64,000 nucleotides of DNA, from NCBI GenBank assembly GCA_034687125.1, contig JAQGBZ010000319.1:1-64000 (forward strand), in the 5' to 3' direction. The notes below the pieces were generated by a model. It saw only the letters and a list, made by a program, of their open reading frames with translations. It was not told where the DNA came from and made no database searches. The translations under genes were made by a program, and so were the position numbers. The DNA is from Neelides folsomi. Lineage: Eukaryota > Arthropoda > Collembola > Neelipleona > Neelidae. Below, in pieces: positions 12,967-57,400 of the stretch. Position 1 is the stretch's first letter; each line of letters opens with the position of its first letter.

Positions 12967-15202
12967 TCATGTGTTATATTTTGTAACTTGATGACTATTA
13001 AAAAAATTTATATTTGAAATTGGTCTAGACTCATTTAAATGGTAAATGATAGGAACTTTTATTGTAATTGAGCCCGAATCATCCAAAGACTTATGTTTAT
13101 TAAATTCTAAATCCAAATTATCTAATAGAAGCCTCTCACTATCATTGTTAATAATTTCTTCTTGTATATAATTTTTCTCTGGCTTCCTTTCAACATTCGG
13201 ATATTGAAAGATCTTGAATAATTCATCCGCGAGTTCTTTTCTCTTAACTCCCTCGTTGTTCAGTTTCAATCTCACTGAAAGCGGTAAAGGAACATTGATC
13301 CCTCTATTCAATAATTTCTGTCCTATTTGTTCTGTCTCATCTTCGTTGTTTTGAGATTCTTCTTTTCTCGTATTATTTTGTTCATTTTCATAATTCATTT
13401 TCTCATCATCGTCACTTTTCTTCAAAATTTCTTCAATAAAATCTAAATGTCTCGAACTTCGCTTTTTCGATTTCAAATTTTTTGATCCCATTCCATATGG
13501 TTTTTCCCCTCTGGTAAATAAGAAGAAACTTCCAGAAACACTACAAAAAGAATATCATAATTAATACATAGAATACCTATTTATTCATAAATAATATATT
13601 TATTATTATATACAAAATGTAAAAATCATGTAAAGACAAACTTGTGTACTTTTTAAGAATGTTTTCTCCCATAAAGGCCACATCAGATTCTTTACATAGA
13701 CATTTTCCTTGTACAAAGGAATCCCAATCTGAGCAAGGGCAAGCAGGAAAAGCCGTCCCATCTTCAATTGACTCAATAAAGTAACCAACAGATCGTGAAT
13801 GATCACATTCGAAGGCTAAAATATTTAAGTAATTTTTTTAATTCAATTAGTATAATAATGCAACACATGCAACATATCTCTTGTATTCTACAATATCCGT
13901 ATCAGTAGTTAAAGTTGATAGTTCATTTATCATACATGTCATAAACTCCATATATTCAAATATTGCACTTCCTATTAGTAAGTAAGTAAGTGCTAATTAA
14001 AAATGATTGATGTAATCAAGATTTATTACTTTCAAAAGGATAAAGCCAATAGGTTGGACACCCCGGCTGTGAGTCACCAGAATTAGGGAAAAAGTCCGCA
14101 TGGCCCAAAGGCGTTTGAAGTCCCAGACCGTTCATGTTTGTGTGAATTATATCAACAAATTTTGCATCCTCTTTGTCCAACCTGTACTGGTTCTCAATTA
14201 GTTTGTAAAAAGGAGCCGCAGGGTCGAGTCCGGTAATTCGCCCTATTTTCCCTTTCAAGAGATGACCGCAATTCCCGGCCACGTGGGCTCCCCATGAATA
14301 CCCGATAAAATGGAAGTCTTTCAATTTGGCCCCTTCTTTTTCTAGGAATTTGACCAGGCTGCAGAGTTGTTCTGTGGCCAGTTCCGGACCATCCATCCAA
14401 TACAAATAGGGTAGGGCCATGAGGGTATAGTCGATCACGACCACGTTCACGTTCCCACTCCCCAAATACGTGTCTTTCATGTCGACGATCCATTCTTCAA
14501 GGTACACTTCGTTGGCAGAATGAGCAAAACCGTGAATAATTACTTTGGACAATTTCCGCGGATCGTAATTGCTTTCTCGTAACATTCGCACATTTCCAAT
14601 TCTCAGTTCTTGAGCTTCTAATGAATTTTTCCTATATGCAGCACCTCAACTTATTTTACATACTTTTTAGTAATTTCTAGGAGTATTGGAATTTATATTG
14701 GAATTAAAATCATTTACCTTGTCCAGAGGCGAAACTTAATATGAGTTTTCAAATTGAACCATGAGAAGATGTTTTTTGATGACAAAATGTCTTCTTTAAC
14801 TTGCAATGGATCATTGACTAATTGAACAATTGGCTTCTTCTTCAAAAATAAACATTCAGATCCTAAATTAAAGTTGAATTTTTGTTAAGCACTCCCCTAT
14901 TGTATTAGTACTTTTTTGCAATTTTGTTTCAAAGTTGTAAAATAAATAGAAAAAACATAATATGTAATAAACATTTTTTCGATTTATATCTAATTACACT
15001 ATTCAGGCCGGTTATATATATTTATATATATTTAATTTAATAGGTAAATCTTGTTAGATATTAGACAGATGCAATTGACAAACTGCTCATTATAATTTGT
15101 AAATGTTTTATATAGTAAAGTATATAAAAATTGTTTACCGAGAACAAAGGTTGCAATTCCAAGAAAAAACACGTTGGTTCTAAAAATATTAAACTTTTTC
15201 AT
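12967..15202 (-). CDS. Secreted pancreatic-lipase-family enzyme with charged C-terminal extension
   Basis: Likely secreted triacylglycerol lipase or phospholipase A1 of the animal lipase family (PNLIP/vitellogenin-like). Five minus-strand exons: 15139-15202, 14718-14862, 14030-14631, 13650-13815, 12967-13540; phases close to 516 residues. A signal peptide opens the protein (MKKFNIFRTNVFFLGIATFV). The catalytic triad is complete: Ser in GYSWGAHVAG, Asp in LDPAAP, His in CDHSRSVGYF, the last in exon 4. After GSFFLFTRGEKPYG, where related enzymes usually end, the frame continues for about 170 residues of Lys/Glu/Asp/Asn-rich sequence (KKRSSRHLDFIEEILKKSDDD onward) with no cysteines. The extension is one exon with the final lipase strand, so it is not an artefact of joining separate exons. 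Substrate is not predictable from sequence. Confidence 0.88.
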
Positions 15203-30746: not shown

Positions 30747-32888
30747 ATGGAGAAAATGGAATTAGAAGTTGAGCCATCGTGTCCAATATGTGGCCTTCGA
30801 GACATGGAATCCCTTTCCGACCATTTACAAACACACTCGAAGAAAAGCCTCATCGACTCTATTATGAATCTTCAGAGTTCGAGTTCATCAGTGATCATTA
30901 AACCCGATGTGAATTTCAGTTCACAATGTGTTGAAGAGATTCAACTCTATGATACTGCAGATGTCGAAGGAGAAGAAACGGATCCACTTTCTGAACCTTT
31001 TACAATTAGTAGACCTCCTCTTCCCACATCAGTCATTCCACTAAATTCAATAATGAAATATATGGAACAAGTAAAAAAAATTCCCAAGTTGGCTTATTTT
31101 TTTAGTAATGACTGATACGGAGTGAAAAAAACTAATATTTTTTACTAATCCAATATTATAAATTTAATTTTTATTTTAGCCTGGAACTTCAAATGATGGA
31201 TGGGGAGAGTCGGCAGCAGCCGAGTTGATGACCGATGAAGAACTTCCACCACAAGGCGAAATCAGCGAATATGAAGAAAGTAACAGTTGTGACATTTATG
31301 ACGGAACGCCCGCTTTTCCTTGTTACGAATGCCTGACTCCATTTTCATCTCTCATTTCCCTACTTAATCATCGGCAAGATGCTCACCGAGAAACAAAACC
31401 AATTCCGGCTTCAACAGTCACTGCCCCAAGTAAGACACCTTTTTCAAATGGATCATATTTAGACATTAAGAAAATTTACCTAACCTGACATATGAATTGC
31501 CTGAATTTATAAGAATGCGCAATTTCCTTTAGCGGGTGAAAATCAAGAAATTGAATGGGAAGAAGAAGGAACTTGTAAAAAACAATTCATTTGCATTTAC
31601 TGTTCATTTGTGACTTTAAGCAAACTTGATCTCAAATCTCATTCAACACTTGAACATCCAAACGAACCAGAACAACCAAAAGAATTTGTCTGCCCAACTT
31701 GTGGAAAGGAATTTCCAGCTCGTGTAAACTTGAGGAAGCATTTCATGGTTCATAAGTAAGTGTATTCAGATTTTATTATGAATTTTATTTAATTAATCGT
31801 TAATATTTGCTTAGTGAAAAGCGTCACATTTGTCAAACTTGTAAGAAAGCTTTTCCTACTCGATTCAAATTGAAAGAACATTCAAGAGTTCATACCGGTG
31901 TGACTCCTTACGTTTGCAATGTTTGCAATAAATCCTACCGGACACAATCTGTCCTCTCTTACCATATCAAAAGTGTTCATACGAAAAGTTCGGAGCCTCC
32001 AACCAAAAAGAGTCGTCAGTTTTATTGCCGACTTTGTCACGGGGCTTTTACTACCAGAACAGCCCTTGAGTCTCACATGGAACTTCATTCTAGAAAACCA
32101 AAGAAGTGTGTTTATTGCACTGAAGCCTTCGTCAGATCTTCAGCCCTTCTTCGCCACATTCGAGCTGTTCACGATCCAACCTATGAGTCTTTGGCTGGAA
32201 AAGATTGTCACATTTGTGGGAAAACGCTCCATCCAAATTCCTTCAAAGCCCATTTGAGAGTTCACATAGACGAGAAACCTTTTAAATGCCCAGTTTGTAA
32301 CAAGTTTTTTCGAACTGCTGCCAATCTCTCGATTCACTCTTGGACGCATACGAATGAAGAAAGGCCTTTTAAATGCAAATACTGCACAAAATCTTACATC
32401 TTTAAAAAGGATCTAGAAGTAATTATCATAAATCCTAATTGTGAATGCTTTAACTTTAGTTTATACCGGAACTTTATACCGGAACTGTATTCTAATTCGT
32501 CTTATATTTACAGAATCACTCTTTATCTCATAAGAGGAAAACAATGCACTACGTGTGCAATGAATGCGGTGTAAAATTCACTTACAAAGTAAGTATAAAG
32601 CGGTTATTTAAATACCAAAGATTTAATAACCATCAACTTTTTATTATTTAAATGAAGGTCAACTTGAAAAGACACATGGAGGAACATTATGGTGAAAAAC
32701 GTTTCGCATGTCTCATTTGTGGCAAAGCCTTCCATCGAAACTACTATTTAATTGAACATCAAAGAATCCACACTGGAGTGAAGCCCTTCACATGTACGAT
32801 ATGCGGGAAAGCTTCGACAACAAAGTCAAATCATAGAACTCATTTGAAAATTCACGATTCAAGAGACCCTGGATCACTGGAGGGGTAA
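30747..32888 (+). CDS. C2H2 zinc-finger protein, 14 fingers
   Basis: Putative DNA-binding regulator; nuclear. Six exons: 30747-31070, 31180-31429, 31533-31755, 31815-32418, 32514-32588, 32658-32888; phases close to 568 residues. One isolated finger (CPICGLRDMESLSDHLQTH) lies at the N-terminus, then an acidic, Ser-rich linker. From residue about 150 come 13 more fingers, including CYECLTPF, CIYCSFVT, CPTCGKEF, CQTCKKAF, CNVCNKSY, CRLCHGAF, CVYCTEAF, CHICGKTL, CPVCNKFF, CKYCTKSY, CNECGVKF, CLICGKAF and CTICGKAS. Krueppel-type linkers (HTGVTPY, HIDEKPF, HTGVKPF) are present between several. Two fingers span introns, which supports the exon model. No ZAD, BTB or KRAB domain is visible, so no ortholog is proposed. 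Confidence 0.93.
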
Positions 32889-33967: not shown

Positions 33968-35676
33968 ATGGCCTCACCACTTTTAAAAACCTGTACCTTG
34001 TCGCGATTAGAAAAACTTTGGAATCACCGTTCTACTTATTTTTCTTTTAGACTGGCATGCAATATCAAGGTAAATAAATAAATTTACTTTTTTATATAAA
34101 TTCAATTAATTTGGCAAACAATATAAAATGATACAGAAATAAAAAATCTTTACCTTATCGAATTAACATTAAGTGTGGAAATTCAATGTTTTTTTATTGA
34201 ATAATAGAGGAAAAGAAGTTCATTTGGCGGATTTCCTGAAGCAATTCACAAGTATAAACCAAATCAACAAACTCGTCAAAATTTAGAAATTACAACCGCT
34301 AATCCCTCAATTGTCAATAATATTCCCCCGATTTCGCTTCCTGATCCGCATAAATTGGTTGAAAACGACCTTCGAGACATCTTTAAAAACATTAACGGGG
34401 TATTAGATAATTTCAAAAGCTAATATTTCCACTTAAAATTAACTCGATCATTTTGATTTTATGCCTTTATTATTGAATTATAACAAATAATTTTACTTTA
34501 TAGGATCTGAAAAGCAATGATTCAGAATTATCGGCCATAGCTATTTATTACTTTGACGGTCAAGGTAAATCTCTTCGACCGCTAATGGCGCTAATTATGG
34601 CAAGGGCTATCAACGCTCATTTACACGGGAATGACAGGTTTGATAGTAAATCTAAATTTGATTTAAAATTATCCGATTTATTGGATTTTAGAATTGGTTT
34701 TTTTATAACAATTAAATATTATTCTGTAGTTTTATATTGCAAAGTCAAAAAAGTCTTGCATTGGTATCAGAAATGATCCATACTGCAACACTAGTCCATG
34801 ATGATGTGATTGATACTTCTGACATGCGAAGAGGAAAACCAAGCATCAATGCTTCCTTTGGCCAGAAGAAAGCAATTCTTGGAGGAGACTTTGTTTTGGC
34901 CAAAGCTGGGGGAATGGTTGCAAAATTAGAAAATGACGAAGTTACCGAAATATTAGCCCAAGTCTTAGAAGATCTCGTTCAAGGAGAATTTATGCAAATG
35001 GGAGCTAACGAAAAGAGCTCTGACCCTTTCACGCATTACATTGACAAAACCTTTAACAAAACTGCTTCGCTAATGGCTCATACATGCAGAGGAGTCGCCG
35101 TTTTGGGAGGAGCAGATGAAAGTCTGAAAGAAATTGCATTTTTATATGGAAAACACGTTGGAGTGGCTTTCCAACTCATCGATGACCTCTTGGATTTTGT
35201 TTCTTCGACCCAAACAATGGGGAAACCTTCTGTAGCTGACCTTCAACTCGGTCTTGCTACAGCTCCCGTCCTCTTTGCTGCGAATAAAGTAAATTTATTT
35301 TTGTAATGTTATTGTACCTATGTATTAATTGGGTTTCAAGAATTGTTTAATTAATTTGAATGAAAATATTTCTTTAGCATTCTGAACTTCATTCATTAAT
35401 TGAACGCCGATTCTCGAAACCTGGGGACATCGAAAAAGCATTAGATTACGTCCACGACTCAGATGGCTTAGAGCAAACGAAATTTCTGGCTCAAAAGTAT
35501 TGTATGGAAGCTGTTCGATATGCGAATTCTATGCGCGAATCAATATACCAGAAAGGACTAATAGCCATAACTGAAAAGGTGAGGATTCTTGAAAATACTT
35601 AATTAGATTTATTTGTTGACGATGAAATATGATATTAAATGCATTTATATTTCAGGTGCTAAATCGTTCAAAGTAA
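33968..35676 (+). CDS. PDSS1: Decaprenyl/polyprenyl diphosphate synthase subunit 1
   Basis: Trans-prenyltransferase that makes the isoprenoid side chain of ubiquinone in mitochondria, normally with PDSS2. Six exons: 33968-34069, 34208-34399, 34504-34637, 34745-35288, 35378-35578, 35656-35676; 397 residues (human 415). The N-terminus is basic and Ser/Thr-rich, as expected for a mitochondrial presequence. Motifs: YYFDGQGKSLRPLMALIMAR, first aspartate-rich site in LVHDDVIDTSDMRRGK, LEDLVQGEFMQMG, KTASLMAHTC, and the second aspartate-rich site in FQLIDDLLDFVSS. Both Mg-diphosphate sites are intact, so activity is expected. The last exon carries only six codons and the stop. Confidence 0.96.
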
Positions 35677-36466: not shown

Positions 36467-39400
36467 TTATTGGCTCCTTCGGCCATTAGGAGAATTTTCA
36501 TTGCTCGAACTTTCTTCGTCCCCATCTTCAGAATCCATATCTCCGAAATTCACCGAAAACCAAATGCTCGTTGGAATATTTTGGCATCCTATTCAATTAC
36601 ATAATATAAGATTAAAACATGATATAATAATTGCAATACAAGAATATGACTATAATTAAAATATATTAGGATTATTTAATATCTGTATGTGTAAAGATAT
36701 TTATTGTTAATTTCGGCATTACCTTGATATAGAGATCTCAACTCTCGGTTAGTCAATGGAGGATTTAAATCGCAAGGTGCTCCAATAACACTCAATTTCA
36801 TCAAGTTCCCAAATGTTGAATCAAACATTGTAGGATTAGAATTTTTCATTCTTAAGCTAGAAGCCTAAAATCATAGATTAATTAATATATTTAGTAATTA
36901 TATGTATGGTACATATAATAATTATAAAAATGAAAATCCTCACTTGTTGAATGTGTTTAAGACAAGAAACGGAATGGGAATGATTTTTCCAAATGTCCGT
37001 TATTTCTCCGTTCACAGTCACTTGGTTGGGAAGGCCAGGTGTGAAAGTAATGATATTCTGATGTTCGCTCGATTGCTTGATATTTGTGACTAATATTTCT
37101 GAATTGCTCTGATCAATGACCAGGACAATCCTTTTGGCCTCACACCTGGCAATGTCATTAAGGAATTCTTTCGTAGTGTACACCTCCGAGTCATCGGCCT
37201 ATAAATTCACAAAGTTAAATTATAACTTTCACTTTAACTCTCCTATTAAGAATATCGAGATATTACAGATAGGTATAAATGAATCTCCAGATAAATGTAA
37301 AATTACAATTCCGTTCTCGTTCACATCCCAAAGAAGGAAATCCCCGTCAATGGTCGTCGGATTATTGAGGTAAATGAAAAGAGAATCGGCACAATGACGA
37401 GTTTCGCAAATTGTTCTCAAATGCCCTCTTATCCCGGTTTTCATTGCTGAAGAAAAGAGATGCGGGGTTGAAAGGTGCTCTCTCGGGAACCCTTTGTTCC
37501 CGCTGTTAGGCCCATTGGCATAAAACATCTTAATGTTTTCTCCCAAGACTCCAATTTTCTTCAACATTTCTTCCATTTTAAAGATGTTATTGAGGGAGAC
37601 AAGACCGGAATGAAGGCGGTTCCAACCCCCGCCGATCAAAATGGCCTCGTCGCATGACTGGAACAACTTACATCGTGTTCCGACCGTGTAGCTTGTGTCG
37701 CATCTAAACAATTTCATTTCATTAAACTTGGGTTGGAAATTGAGGTCGAGAAGAAGATGTGCCAAAATTACCTTTTCGTATTGCTGTGTGATGGATCGCA
37801 AAGGACCTTGGTCGTATCTTCGAGCTTTCTCATTTGTGGACATGGAGCAAAGCCGTTGGCGGAAACGCATTCGAGTAAATTGGAATGAGTTTCATCTTGA
37901 GTGGAAATGGGCGAATGGTTACTCGTCGCCAAATGGACTGAAGGGAGGAAATCTATGTGACATCTTCGAGGTTGAATGCCGCCGGTGAATCTTTCTAACA
38001 GATTTGGGCATCTTGGTTTTCTCCCAACGCTTATACATGTTCCATCTACACAATTTACAAATAAAATCCATACATTACAATTTAATTAAAAAATATCATC
38101 CATTCTGTATTAAATCTTCATATAAATACATAAATCTTAAAGAATAACTAAAAGTCCACTAATATTGTAATTAACTAAACTGAAATTAACTAATTTATCA
38201 AGAATCGTACGCAGTAGAAAATACGTCTAAGTTGAAAAGAAGCATTGTAAATTGTAATATATTTGTTGATTATTGATTGCCATTTTCCTGAACAATTCTA
38301 GTTATCCCCTCAATAAAAAATTTCCCTTGTTAATTCTGTCCTTGTTTACTAAAGGTAGTGAGTCTTGTCCTTTAGCTGCCTGAAGCATTGGTGAACCATG
38401 GGTTTAAGTCTGTTGAGTGTGAATGTGAGTTCCAAATGTGCATTTCCTCGGAATCTGTGAGTCTGTGAGGGAGTGATTTTTGAGGGTCATATAAGGAATA
38501 CAAAGAATCGGTCTTAATCTCTGGTGGTCGGTCCTTTAGTACAAATGAGAGTTTGATTAGTCGGTGGGAGTCTGGGTAGTTGAAACTAATCCTCGTAACG
38601 TGAGACGAGAGGAAATTAATTGTGTATGAGAGGAGGACATGGAAAAGATCTTAGTGTGGGCATCCTCTCACTCCTTAGTTGATTCATCAAGGAAGGGGGA
38701 GGGTCAGAAGGTAGGGAAATGAAAGAGAGCATTATCGGCCCAGAAGCGGCTCCGCTTTGAAGTCGGCATCTTCAAACCCAACCTGGCTCGTGGCACCTTT
38801 ATCCTCACAAACGCCGCTTCGCCGACAAAAAACCTTTCCCACGAAGTTTCCACTTGCCTTTATTATTATTATCATATATTTCTTACATATCCTATTCCCG
38901 TCTTGCCCTCACCCGTTCTTCTCCTCCCTGACTTTTCTCTCGGCAAACAATTACATGGTCCTTTTATTACGGTTCATTTAACTCACATTACTTCAAGTCT
39001 GTAATAAAACCGGTGGGACACTCTTCTAATCATTGCCAAAGAATTACTACTACTTATTATATATCTTGTGAAATTTCCTTCATATGGCCGAAAATACTAT
39101 TCTCGGAGTGTAATCCCATTGGAGTGGAGTGTGAGGTGCACATCTGGCATTTACTACAAATTTTATGATCTCCCACTATTTGGTTCACTTGTTTATTGAA
39201 ACCCGATGGTAAATTTAAGCCGCCACCACATTAGCTTTCTTATTATTATATCAGCTTACGATACACTCACTCACAATCAGTCCTTTAATTTTGGTTAAAA
39301 AATGTCAAAAACTTTTAAGGTTTTATATTATATACAAGTGTCTCTGATTCTACGATTCTGTTAGATTATGCCATTCATCTTTAACATATTGAAATAGAGT

Positions 39401-40085
39401 ATGTTCATTAAACATAAGTTTTCAATTAAGAAATAAATATGTAAATCATAGTAAAATAAATTTACTGTGAAAGTGTCCAATTAAAATGCAATTAAATATA
39501 ATGCTCATAAATTAGGATTTATATGGCACTTTCATAGTACATATAATTTTAGTTTATGAAATGATCAATAAATAATCGAATAGCAATATTGTAAACGGAA
39601 CGTTAAATTGTACCAGAATTGAAGAGTTGGTGATTTTCTTTGCAATTTTTACTTTCTGCATTGAAGTCGACATAAAAGAGCCCCAAGGGATGTCCGAAAT
39701 TTGCAGTAGGATAAGGATCAATGGCCAAAATGAGATCATGCGGTCTGCTCGCTTTGGTGCTACTCGAGTCGGGGAGAACTGCAAACACTTTCTTCTTCTT
39801 CGACTCTTTGTAAATTCTTCCCGAGAATATCGGTTCACGTTGTCGGCCAATATAAACTGCCGATTCGTGTCTCTTGATTTGTGAGAGTTTAAAACACTCA
39901 TCTTCCGATCCTAAGTTTGATTCAAGACACCGCTGGAAATCAAAAAACTTGAAGGCTGTTCCCCCGAACTTTTGTGCTAATTGAGCATCGGTCAATTGGA
40001 GCGGCGAGAGTGAATTTGTCTCAATCGTCCCTCCGGTCGACGTCTGAACTCCAAGGAGTAAAAGGGTAAGAGGGATCAGAGACAT
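36467..40085 (-). CDS. Secreted protein with a degenerate clan CD (legumain/caspase-fold) protease domain
   Basis: Six minus-strand exons: 39614-40085, 37772-38045, 37307-37703, 36944-37198, 36723-36864, 36467-36588; phases close to 553 residues. The start gives a clean signal peptide (MSLIPLTLLLLGVQTSTGG); an upstream in-frame ATG at 40190 is less likely. The N-terminal half is Cys-containing and unfamiliar (PHDLILAIDPYPTANFGHPL, then RCPNLLERFTGG). From residue about 262, AILIGGGWNRLHSG, MLKKIGVLGENIKMFYANG, DSLFIYL (355-361) and KRIVLVIDQSNSEIL (403-417) follow the strand order of clan CD proteases. In active members DSLFIYL would run into S/D-H-G with the catalytic His, and VLVIDQ into the catalytic Cys; here these are NNP and Ser412. 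The fold call is my inference from motif order. The tail is acidic and Ser/Asn-rich. No frame breaks, so it reads as a working gene for a non-catalytic protein. Confidence 0.7.
38046..39613 (-). other. Intron 1 of the pseudo-protease gene
   Basis: 1.57-kb intron with a GC-richer middle (38340-39060) compared with the rest. The plus frame at 38757-38981 has no motif. It might hold an alternative promoter or regulatory DNA; nothing specific recognised. Confidence 0.5.
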
Positions 40086-51991: not shown

Positions 51992-54423
51992 CGTGAATAG
52001 CTTATTGGTAAATTAGTTAATCACAATGATATAAGTCACACTATAAACTCAGAATATTCATAATAAGCAAACTTTGCAATTTTGTCAAATCTCTAATTTC
52101 ATAACTCAACGGAGAGAAAAACTCAAAACTAAAATTCACAAAACAAAGGAAAAATAGAAACGGCAGAAAAGTGAGAAAACGTGAAAAGAGAAAACGAAAA
52201 CGAAAACCTCATGTTGAACGAAAGACCGCTATCTATTCAAAAGTCTTCTCAATACCTAGAGCCTCAATTAACTACAATGTTTCACCTTGGACAAATCTTT
52301 GCTGTGTTCATTGTAAAAATATTTTAACTTTATTTTTACATAAGCCTTGGTACATATTAGAGTATATTGTCCGTATACCATTCCAGCTTTCAATACGCCT
52401 TTGATGATCTTATAAAATTGGGAGCTTTTGTTTTATGTATGAGAATCTTATTTACTTATGTATGAGTGTCTTTGTCTACTTTGTCCTTCGAGATAAATTT
52501 TGTAAGTGAGAATGAATTAACTATATTTTATAAGTTTATTATTTATTATAAACCTAAGTATCATTGTATGGATGTTTAAAAAAATAGTAAAACATTACTT
52601 TTGGTATCAAGTACTTTGATTTAATACTAAATACATATTATATGGCGGAAACGGAAAGAAGGATTTTGAATGAAGTATCACAATTAAAATCTTTTTATAG
52701 CCTTTCCACCTTTTACATATTTATTTCAAAAGAATACTTTCTTTAAAGATGGTCGAAAGATATGTAAATTGGAATTCTACAGGCTACAGAGTTGTTCATT
52801 TACAATAAAGTTTCAATAAATTTTCCTTTTCCCTATTCAATTTCCTCGCCGATTAGAAGCTTTCACAATGGATTATTTAAATCCTATTTTAATCTATTGT
52901 CATTATAATGCCACTCATACTCATTCATTTGTTAGAATTTAACAATGAGAACTAAACCAACTTGGACATCATGCGTTTTCCTCATTGTAAGTAAATTAAT
53001 TCTTCATGACACTGCACATCTTAAATATCGAGAAAGTATTATCTAAAAATGCTAATGAAGCGAATAATCAATTCGGATCTTCTCTTAATTGTTCACAATC
53101 CTAAAAAGGTACCAATATTGAATATAATAAAAAAAATTTGCCACGCATTTTAAATATGTCGTAACTTCATAAAATAGAAAATTTAATGTTTTGTGTAAAA
53201 TAGATGGAATTTTAAAAAATGGTTAATTTTTCTATCCGAATGGATATCGATCAGTACATCAGTAGGGTTATACATATTTCCTTGTGGAAAGAGAGGATAA
53301 AGTTTCTTTTGTAGAAACAATTTAAGAATAATAATGAACTGAAATTTTGTATTGCCCGACAAAAGCCGGATTTGAATCGTATACATAATACACAAAAAAG
53401 TAATATTGTATCGGATTTCGAGCATAACTACCTATATAGAAAGTATAATCTTGGAGAGATCATGGGGCGGCTTCGATTCAAGAATGAGTGAAGTTAACCC
53501 AATCCTAACCTTTCCTCATCTGTGGGGGGTTTAGATGCATTAATGAATAATTTATTAGACCATTTGATCTGGCTCGATTTTCATAGCAGGAAAGTATTAT
53601 AAGGCTATTATTAAGTATAAGTGCCCTATAGGCATCATCTTGCATGTTCTCATGCACTGATGCTATTTGAGACGGATGAAATAGAAGCTCATTCATCAAA
53701 TAAGAATAATTTCGACCTTTGAGGCAGGATTGGAAATGGGAGTCTCACAAAGGGAATTATGGTGATTTATCTCTTCTCATATCAGATTCCCGGTTGTGTG
53801 AGGAGGGCAAAAGGAGGGACTTGAGACAATGTTCTTTATCCTCCTTCATATCAATTCGCTCATTGTTGGGAGTGGAAAAGTTGGGATTTGAAACAACTTC
53901 TCCTCAGAGAACCTCTGCCTTCCCATCATCTTTCTTGGACCGAATTAGTATAAAAGACCCCAACGCGTTCTCCTTGCCATCAGATCCGCTCGAGTCTTCT
54001 CCCTTCTTGTCACCCCAACTCTGTAGCTCGCGTTTCTCCGACCAGCTCCCGCACCACTCGTCAGTTCCTTTATTATTTCTCCTCCTATACACAAATCATA
54101 TTTAAAATAATAATACGGGAGGCTCGAAGGACTGGTCTTTGTGATTGTGATAAAAAGTATTGGCATTTAACTTTGAAGCGACGGAGCCACCCTCTGAGCC
54201 ACCACTCAGCCTCTCAAAGTCAGTGAGTAGAAAGACTCGAGCAAGCTTGTTCCTCTCCAGACCTTTATTCTTAAGTAGATAGGAGATGGAATGAAATCTC
54301 GCTCGGTTTGCTGAAACATTCACATACACACACACTCGAGTGTCGACTCTTGTGATATTTTCATAACCTCTTATATTATTCATCCGATTAAAGAACTCTC
54401 ACCTTTTGCCCGACTCTTTCAAC
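51992..54423. other. Divergent region TEX10 / myoglianin
   Basis: 2.4 kb between divergent starts. The side next to myoglianin (53740-54400) is clearly GC-richer and fits a promoter and 5' UTR; frames at 53505-53699 (-), 53719-54105 (+) and 53904-54383 (-) overlap each other in this richer DNA and show no motif. The middle (52430-53450) is AT-rich without features. Confidence 0.5.
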
Positions 54424-57400
54424 ATGGTTAGTTCAACCACACATTTGGTGATGCTCGTGTCGGCTGTTCTCAGTTGGCATGTGGAACTGAACCACGCTTC
54501 TCCGAGCCCTGGTTCAACTGCGAGGAGCGTAAAATCAAATATCGAGACTACTCATGGGGACAATACCTCCTTGTTCGTCAACAGTACAAGGTTCAATGGC
54601 ACAACGACCACTGGAACCGAAGCTCCTTGTACAGGAACGGGAGGACTCTGTCGAAACTATGGGTTGGATATGAAGAAACTCACGCTGGAAATGATCCGAC
54701 ATGATATTCTCAAAAAACTCCGAATGGATGAAAATCGGCTTCCCAATACAAGCGGGCAAGGATTCCCTTTTCCACCTGGATATCTCCAGGATTTCATTTC
54801 TGAAATGCAGAGCGACTCTCCGAGAGACGAATTTTTTGATGATGAGCACGCGACGACTGAAAAGATCATTGCTTTCTCCAGATATCGTAAGTTAAATCTT
54901 TATCTAATCCTACATTTATGATAAATACAGTTGAAGGTTTTTAAATCTAAATGTAACCATAATTTAAAATTAATATAAGGTATACACTGTTAGTACATAC
55001 CTTACTATCAGCATCAAACATTCATTTTCAATAAATGGCTAGCGTAAACATTATAAATGAGGAGAAAAAAATTAGTGACATACTTCCTTTCCTTAAATGC
55101 GTAATTAATATATAAAGTAAAGTAAAAAAGGTTCAGCCCCTGCCCTTTACGAAAAAAACAAAAATGGTACTAATAAGAGAAAATTGAATTTTAGATATAT
55201 TTTTCGAATGCATTTGTAATATAAACACTTTAATAGAATGTTCATTTCACGGAAAGCGTGCATCATCTTATTTATATGCAATATTTTTTAATAGTTTACA
55301 ATATATGCATTCTCAATGCTTCAAGCGTAATTAGTTATTTCTTCCTAAATGCATTTAACATGTGACACGTGCAGTTTAAAGTATTGTAACTGTATGCTCA
55401 TATCTACAATGCTGGCTAATTCTAAAAAAACATTCTAAAAAAATCAAATAACATTTGTAAATGCAATATGTAAATGGAGTGAGCCAATTGGGTAGGTGAA
55501 AAATATCAAATTCGCAGAACTGAACATGTATTTTGCAGAATGTAAAAACTTGTAATTATATCATATTTCAAGTTTAGAAATTAAACAAGATAATATTGGT
55601 TATTAAATTAAAAAATAGCCCTATTGTATAAGGATTAAAGATATCAAAAATGTAAAGTCAATATGTGCATTAGAGGGTCAAGTAGTGACATATCCTATCT
55701 TTAGAATTCGAACACTTTGTTTGAGAATGCTCTCCTGGTCTCAAGCCACTTTTTTTTAAATAAACATTTTACTCTACATTTTACGTGAAACCTCTTGGTT
55801 GGGATCTTGGAAGTAAGTTTTAATAAAACTCTTACATATTACATCGATGGCATTTGACCTACCAAAGTCAAATGTGGAGTGTGCGGGTGAGAGTGCAAAT
55901 GTTCAAACTTCTCTTAGTATATGAAAATTAACAAATAATAAAAAAAGACAAATTGGGAGCATCTTCATTTTGATGGGTTCCTGGTGAACAATTCAGCTGG
56001 GATAGAGGATTATTGTTTGTCAGTAAGATAGTTTTTAATCTCTGGGAAGAGCGAGTAAAGAAAGAAGAAAAGCAAAGAGAGAGGAATCATCAGTAAAGAG
56101 GATGAGATATGATGCTGTCTCCTCAAGTCTTCAACTGATGCCGAGGGCATATGAGTTACTATTATATACTTTTCAATGTCAGACGTGAGACACGGATTGT
56201 AAACAGATAATATATGGAACGGCGGATCCCTCCCGTTGAACCACAATGGACCCAAAGGAAATTCTAAAACCAATTTATTAATTAATTCCAAATTTCCTTT
56301 AAGGAGAGGATTGATAACATTGTGGTTTTAATCGTTAAAAATTAAAAATTTTATTTTTTCCGTGTTTCATTCACAAGATATCTTAACAAATTATATAAAT
56401 TGCTCATACTTGAATGTCTGAGAAGTTAAGATTCAAATGTCCTTAGCCTTTAATTCTAATCTCGACGTAAAATATGATCAATATGTTTTATATGCTATTT
56501 TTATGTAATTAAGGCGTAATTGGTATATTGCATTGTGAATATTATATTGATACAATGTATTAAAATACTTAATACTCGAGAATAAATATCGTATGTTAGT
56601 TATGCAAAAAATACTTATAAGCTTATTTATTATAAGGATCGATTAATCTGAATCTTAAAATTACAATTAATTTTAATTCGTTAATAGTAGTCAGTCATTA
56701 TATTAACGACACAACCAATAAATAAATATTTTTATGTTCTTGCAATAATATTCAAATACACCATTTACAAATTCTAATCACAATCACGCATGAAAGATAT
56801 TTTAAGTTCAAAAAAGCCTCAGAACTTTCAATTTTAACTACGCGTCTCGACCAAGAAAGTCATCCAAATGATATTAATATTACATTTTATAATATACATA
56901 CGAGCATTACATCTGTATACATAACTTTATAGTAAATATAATCATTAGTATTTAATATCTTCCAGAAATATTATTGGACTTGTGATATGAAGGAACGTGA
57001 GAACATAAATATAGTTTAATATTGATAAAATATAAATATACTTTGAGTTGGAGTTACTGTGTGTAATTTGTATGTAAATACATATAAGAAAAGAAGAGCT
57101 GCAATCCTTTCGCTTTCTCCTATTTCTCACATTAAGTCAAATTCGAGGATTGGTAGATAATCTTAATTCTTATCTAAATGAAAGTAACCTTCTTCATAGT
57201 TATACGTTAGACGCTCATTTAGACGTGCATTGAGAGATAATTGGCAGTTACGTTCCGTGGTGTAGTTCGGCCCGGAGGCAAGATCTTTGGAGGGTTAAAA
57301 ATTTTGCGATAGTAGTTAAACGACATAATGTCGAAATTACTTGGTTCGGAAATTCAAAGATTTGGGGTTATTCATTTAACAAATTATCCTAAATGTATCA

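Follow-up and report, generated by a model that had tools for sequence, protein, structure and literature searches.

A candidate secreted clan CD pseudo-peptidase with a calcium-type loop in the springtail Neelides folsomi and across Bilateria

What is a protease without catalytic residues kept for? The question is raised by a six-exon gene at 36467..40085 on the minus strand of contig JAQGBZ010000319.1 of the springtail Neelides folsomi (assembly GCA_034687125.1, positions 1 to 64,000; this whole stretch of 64,000 nucleotides is the window), which encodes a 553-residue protein resembling a secreted clan CD protease. Our reading, to which we give a probability of about 0.72, is that the protein would be a secreted, disulfide-locked and calcium-stabilised clan CD pseudo-peptidase with a conserved dead cleft that binds a partner, as suggested by sequence comparisons and by a structure model of a relative.

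The original prediction, made from the DNA of this locus alone, had put the residues NNP (362-364) in place of the catalytic His and Ser412 in place of the catalytic Cys, about 50 residues apart. Counted in an alignment of the 553-residue protein with all 182 fetched relatives (183 rows), the Cys slot is where it was proposed, and the His is indeed replaced and the NNP present, although the slot itself is Pro364 and not one of the asparagines:

37358..37360, minus strand: Pro364, slot of the catalytic His, two residues past strand 3 (Pro in 183/183 rows)
37106..37108, minus strand: Ser412, slot of the catalytic Cys, in DQSNS (183-row alignment)

The two slots are 48 residues apart. Residue 412 is Ser in 176 rows, Asn in four (P0030, P0036, P0037 and P0043, of which three come from spiders or a tick by name), Thr in one and a gap in two, with Cys in none, so that both catalytic residues are absent throughout relatives from many animals. 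One row (P0157) has a Cys at 414, two residues beyond the slot, and in two of the 52 rows of a second alignment (P0021 and P0029) a His follows Pro364 after a few residues. With the peptidase fold retained in a model and conserved substitutions at both catalytic positions, the family has the properties of a pseudo-peptidase, and the protein should not cut peptides, because the His slot holds Pro and the Cys slot Ser. The near-uniform Ser412 could alternatively be the nucleophile of a protein that is still an enzyme, with the base supplied from elsewhere, and conserved histidines are available for this (His132 in 50/52 rows, His343 in 48/52, His427 in 49/52). We consider this very unlikely, since five rows have Asn or Thr at 412, replacements that would hardly be tolerated if Ser were an essential nucleophile; moreover, in the model the match of His343 belongs to the helix that precedes strand 3, and that of His427 comes just before strand 5, a place that by clan CD topology would be at the opposite end of the sheet to the cleft.

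The structure model was made of the relative P0001 rather than of the 553-residue protein, and its predicted fold is that of clan CD, as the original prediction had proposed: a central sheet whose strands 3 and 4 lead into the catalytic sites. The last residue of strand 3 is N404 of P0001 (N362 in N. folsomi), with Pro406 (Pro364) two residues on at the place of the clan CD His, and strand 4 ends at residue 451, with Ser454 (Ser412) three residues on at the place of the Cys. The strands AILIGGGW, DSLFIYL and RIVLVIDQ, on which the fold was first proposed, are all found in the translation. With regard to profiles, Peptidase C13 (legumain/GPI8; PF01650) was matched by 20 of 76 family members at E <= 0.1, and scored above the Pfam cut-off of 22.8 bits in two of eight members scanned singly (P0066 with 24.7 and P0057 with 24.0 bits); Pfam C14 is absent from the ten families matched by any of the 76 members at E <= 0.1. 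In the structural comparison of the model the fold Z for C14 was tied with that for C13. Other profile matches were discarded: a transposase (Pfam DDE_1, E 0.094, 12.7 bits where the cut-off is 22) appeared in only one of five members and not among the families of the 76 relatives, while coproporphyrinogen oxidase (two of five members, best E 0.039) and Lem4 (E 0.36) were weak and at chance level.

The same genome carries separate enzyme genes with intact catalytic motifs, FVDHG/ACESG in legumain and MTGHG/VDTC in PIGK:

G000:C63:39000-46500: legumain gene (L011)
G000:C27:218800-220800: PIGK gene (L010)

Several observations weigh against our reading. The 553-residue protein itself has no significant Pfam match, and the top Foldseek match of the model is a partial superposition (TM-score 0.50 by target, root-mean-square deviation 17.7 A over 348 columns). 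The sequence-only alignment of the catalytic half to the N. folsomi legumain and PIGK is not robust: shortened profile alignments failed, and MAFFT with 12 rows put His opposite Pro364 in none and Cys opposite Ser412 in seven. The His slot is placed by the position of the strand, by the register of Y-L-N-S-P with Y-F-T-D-H, which we take to be the legumain motif, and by a single global profile alignment to PIGK, a weak one (E 0.044, probability 0.6%), which agrees with both slots; in weak second phmmer domains (-1.8 and -2.0 bits), DQS of P0057 is aligned with EAC of plant legumains. Finally, the windows of three residues either side of 364 and 412 have a mean entropy of 1.04 bits versus 1.78 for the domain, but 8 of 185 window pairs slid at the same spacing are equally low, which makes the former active site one of the better conserved parts of the domain, not uniquely so, and the signal moderate.

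A feature overlooked in the original prediction directly follows the strand 3 region:

37184..37327, minus strand: EF-hand/thrombospondin-type calcium loop by motif pattern, residues 375-386 (DVNENGIADDSE), split by the intron between exons 3 and 4

EF-hand and thrombospondin type-3 loops share the consensus D-x-[DN]-x-[DN]-G-x(5)-E, and the pattern D.[ND].[ND]G.....E is present in 51/52 and 176/183 rows. In the 52-row alignment D375, G380 and E386 are invariant, and positions 377 (29/23) and 379 (33/19) hold only N or D; this alternation at metal-ligand places together with the fixed D, G and E is typical of a Ca2+ loop, and the loop probably binds Ca2+. Pfam EF-hand is not among the matches listed for the 553-residue protein or the 76 members. 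The seven rows lacking the pattern are P0019, P0135 and P0170, which have long insertions, and P0047, P0130, P0137 and P0182, which deviate otherwise. The loop insertions in the first three resemble unspliced intron and suggest mispredicted gene models, and those of P0135 and P0170 start right after 'NGI', the exon 3/4 junction of the N. folsomi gene, in agreement with an old intron position.

The gene itself is open as first described, the exon joins giving 553 residues with an intact reading frame and all five introns being GT-AG:

36467..40085, minus strand: whole coding region, six exons, 553 residues, spliced and translated, with relatives along most of its length
39614..40085, minus strand: exon 1, putative signal peptide and first part of the N-terminal domain
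40085-40029, minus strand: putative signal peptide, approximately residues 1-19, by hydropathy
37772..38045, minus strand: exon 2, Cys-rich remainder of the N-terminal domain, by Cys conservation
37307..37703, minus strand: exon 3, end of the Cys-rich region, then the clan CD domain through strand 3
37651, minus strand: approximate start of the clan CD domain (about residue 267), from the model of P0001
36944..37198, minus strand: exon 4, helix after the calcium-type loop, strand 4 and following
36723..36864, minus strand: exon 5, end of the clan CD domain, with Cys497 (51/52 rows)
36467..36588, minus strand: exon 6, Cys515 (51/52 rows) and acidic C-terminal tail

The frame is not a chance one, since most of it can be aligned with relatives (a springtail protein with 53% identity over 97% of the query, a bivalve protein with 37% over 88%). 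Its N-terminal start, MSLIPLTLLLLGV, is the most hydrophobic stretch, with a best 19-residue mean of 1.37 versus at most 0.76 after residue 30, and is likely to be a signal peptide. A second feature not reported in the original prediction is that exactly 18 cysteines are present in 40 of the 52 aligned rows, an even set that suggests disulfides; Cys 161, 170, 186, 217, 226 and 240 are invariant (52/52 rows). The Cys-containing N-terminal half, which the original prediction could not place, is indeed Cys-rich, and can now be described as a domain of its own, strongly conserved across the family; modelled alone it matched no solved fold, and it may be a possibly new cysteine-rich fold. A link of this domain to the TNF receptor was rejected, as the profile search gave a single short stretch of 28 residues (E 0.027).

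The secreted look, common cysteines, calcium-type loop and strongly conserved N-terminal domain would also suit a structural component of the extracellular matrix, in which the N-terminal domain does the work and the clan CD domain is a mere scaffold. This is unlikely in our view, as conservation at the former active site exceeds that of most of the domain around it, which would be needless in a scaffold.

How widely such proteins occur became apparent from protein searches. The first, with the N. folsomi protein, returned four relatives including two from Orchesella and one from the bivalve Solemya, and a search with the Solemya member returned 211 proteins at E <= 0.001. Among the matches listed for the latter (120 of 211) are protostomes (bivalves, gastropods, a chiton, annelids, nemerteans, a bryozoan, spiders, a tick and Limulus, and further arthropods in the form of a sea spider, decapods, barnacles and a mayfly) as well as deuterostomes (amphioxus, acorn worms, echinoderms, sharks, rays, bony fishes, lungfish and lizards). 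All members among the matches listed are named only 'uncharacterized', 'hypothetical' or 'unnamed', many fish entries being si:ch211-67e16.11. Using a lizard member as query, the matches listed (120 of 165) came from lizards, snakes, turtles, lungfish, and cartilaginous and bony fishes, with no mammal, bird or amphibian name among them, and the family was likely lost in mammals, because a mammalian ortholog should outrank those of fishes in this search. No relative was confirmed in the prokaryotic genomes scanned with the family alignments.

A tree of 50 proteins (the 52-row alignment minus P0002 and P0062) groups the N. folsomi protein with Orchesella (100/100) and next with the mayfly (98/99), and has arthropods (96/89), lophotrochozoans (95/89) and deuterostomes (100/99) each on one side of a branch. 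The tree has the pattern expected if a single gene was passed down from the bilaterian ancestor, and by these comparisons the family is pan-bilaterian and not an arthropod oddity. A lineage-specific decayed copy of legumain, either a pseudogene or a young duplicate, would likewise have lost both catalytic residues, and is almost certainly the wrong explanation: the frame is open over six exons, legumain and PIGK are present as separate genes, a 133-residue piece of exon 3 has itself as its single match in the 75.1-Mb, 840-contig assembly, and since relatives across Bilateria share the same replacements, the family is not a lone degenerate copy.

The family was also compared with known systems. 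Metacaspases (C14) are calcium-dependent clan CD enzymes, whereas the family lacks the catalytic dyad and has a loop of EF-hand type, which to our knowledge metacaspases do not have. Metacaspase 4 of Trypanosoma brucei is reported to be a pseudopeptidase, likewise inactive within clan CD but with its own role; it reportedly has a Cys-to-Ser change and no N-terminal Cys-rich domain. GPI8/PIGK (C13), the catalytic subunit of glycosylphosphatidylinositol (GPI) transamidase, keeps GHG and VDTC in N. folsomi, unlike the family. Legumain (MEROPS C13) differs in having the catalytic His and Cys and in lacking the calcium-type loop after strand 3, and also in its extra domain, which is C-terminal (PMC4357240), whereas the Cys-rich domain of the family precedes the protease domain. 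The bacterial pseudo-orthocaspases are clan CD proteins in which His-Cys is replaced by Tyr-Ser and which are presumed inactive (PMC6426788); they share the Ser with the family, but are prokaryotic and have Tyr rather than Pro at the His slot.

The likeness to legumain also allows for a decoy role, in which the protein would act as a natural antagonist of legumain or one of its relatives by sequestering the substrates or regulators of such proteases. The fold class is shared and some members give the Pfam C13 signal, and 24 of the 52 members have an R-H pair that lines up with Arg44-His45 of the S1 pocket of legumain (PMC4357240). As this pair is missing in the 553-residue protein and the two Orchesella rows, we regard such a role as quite unlikely.

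With regard to the rest of the window, the following was noted by eye. Exons resembling decaprenyl (polyprenyl) diphosphate synthase subunit 1 adjoin the pseudo-protease gene tail to tail. A secreted-looking open reading frame has a stretch resembling a TGF-beta propeptide and may represent exon 1 of a gene for a TGF-beta family ligand:

34208-35674, plus strand: decaprenyl (polyprenyl) diphosphate synthase subunit 1-like exons, by motifs
54367-54921, plus strand: secreted-looking open reading frame with the TGF-beta propeptide-like stretch
14016-14645, minus strand: exon resembling a pancreatic-lipase-type enzyme (HGF..., GYSWGAHVAG)
31804-32574, plus strand: C2H2 zinc-finger exon

Returning to the partner-binding pseudo-peptidase, we propose the following course of events. 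The signal peptide would be removed and the protein secreted, folding into the conserved Cys-rich N-terminal domain and a legumain/GPI8-like domain, held by disulfides. The loop past strand 3, turned into a calcium-type loop, would bind Ca2+ outside the cell and fix the rim of the old cleft, which would bind a peptide or protein partner (a receptor, a matrix protein or a protease substrate) without cutting it. Partner binding by the cleft is the most likely role because the cleft region is still well conserved; the cutting residues would have been replaced before the bilaterian radiation, and the cleft kept for binding.

Many pseudo-peptidases have been recognised as lineage-specific duplicates of active enzymes. 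Here a whole family was apparently fixed in an inactive state before the split of protostomes and deuterostomes, and has been kept in springtails, molluscs, spiders, starfish, sharks, bony fishes and lizards. In the open-access literature, to which our search was confined, no paper contains ch211-67e16.11 or any of six LOC names of members, and among the papers listed no title or opening of an abstract describes the family; as far as these searches show the pseudo-peptidase family is undescribed so far. As a candidate case of a protease fold kept for binding it can be tested directly, since its gene has a zebrafish-style name in many fishes and its conserved loop predicts calcium dependence; the family also defines a probably extracellular domain without assignment. 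The bilaterian ancestor lived more than 500 million years ago, and we hold it about an even chance that the family, present in this last common ancestor, joined a possibly new Cys-rich fold to a clan CD domain as a Ca2+-gated extracellular binding module, which would have served as a catalytically dead receptor or ligand ever since.
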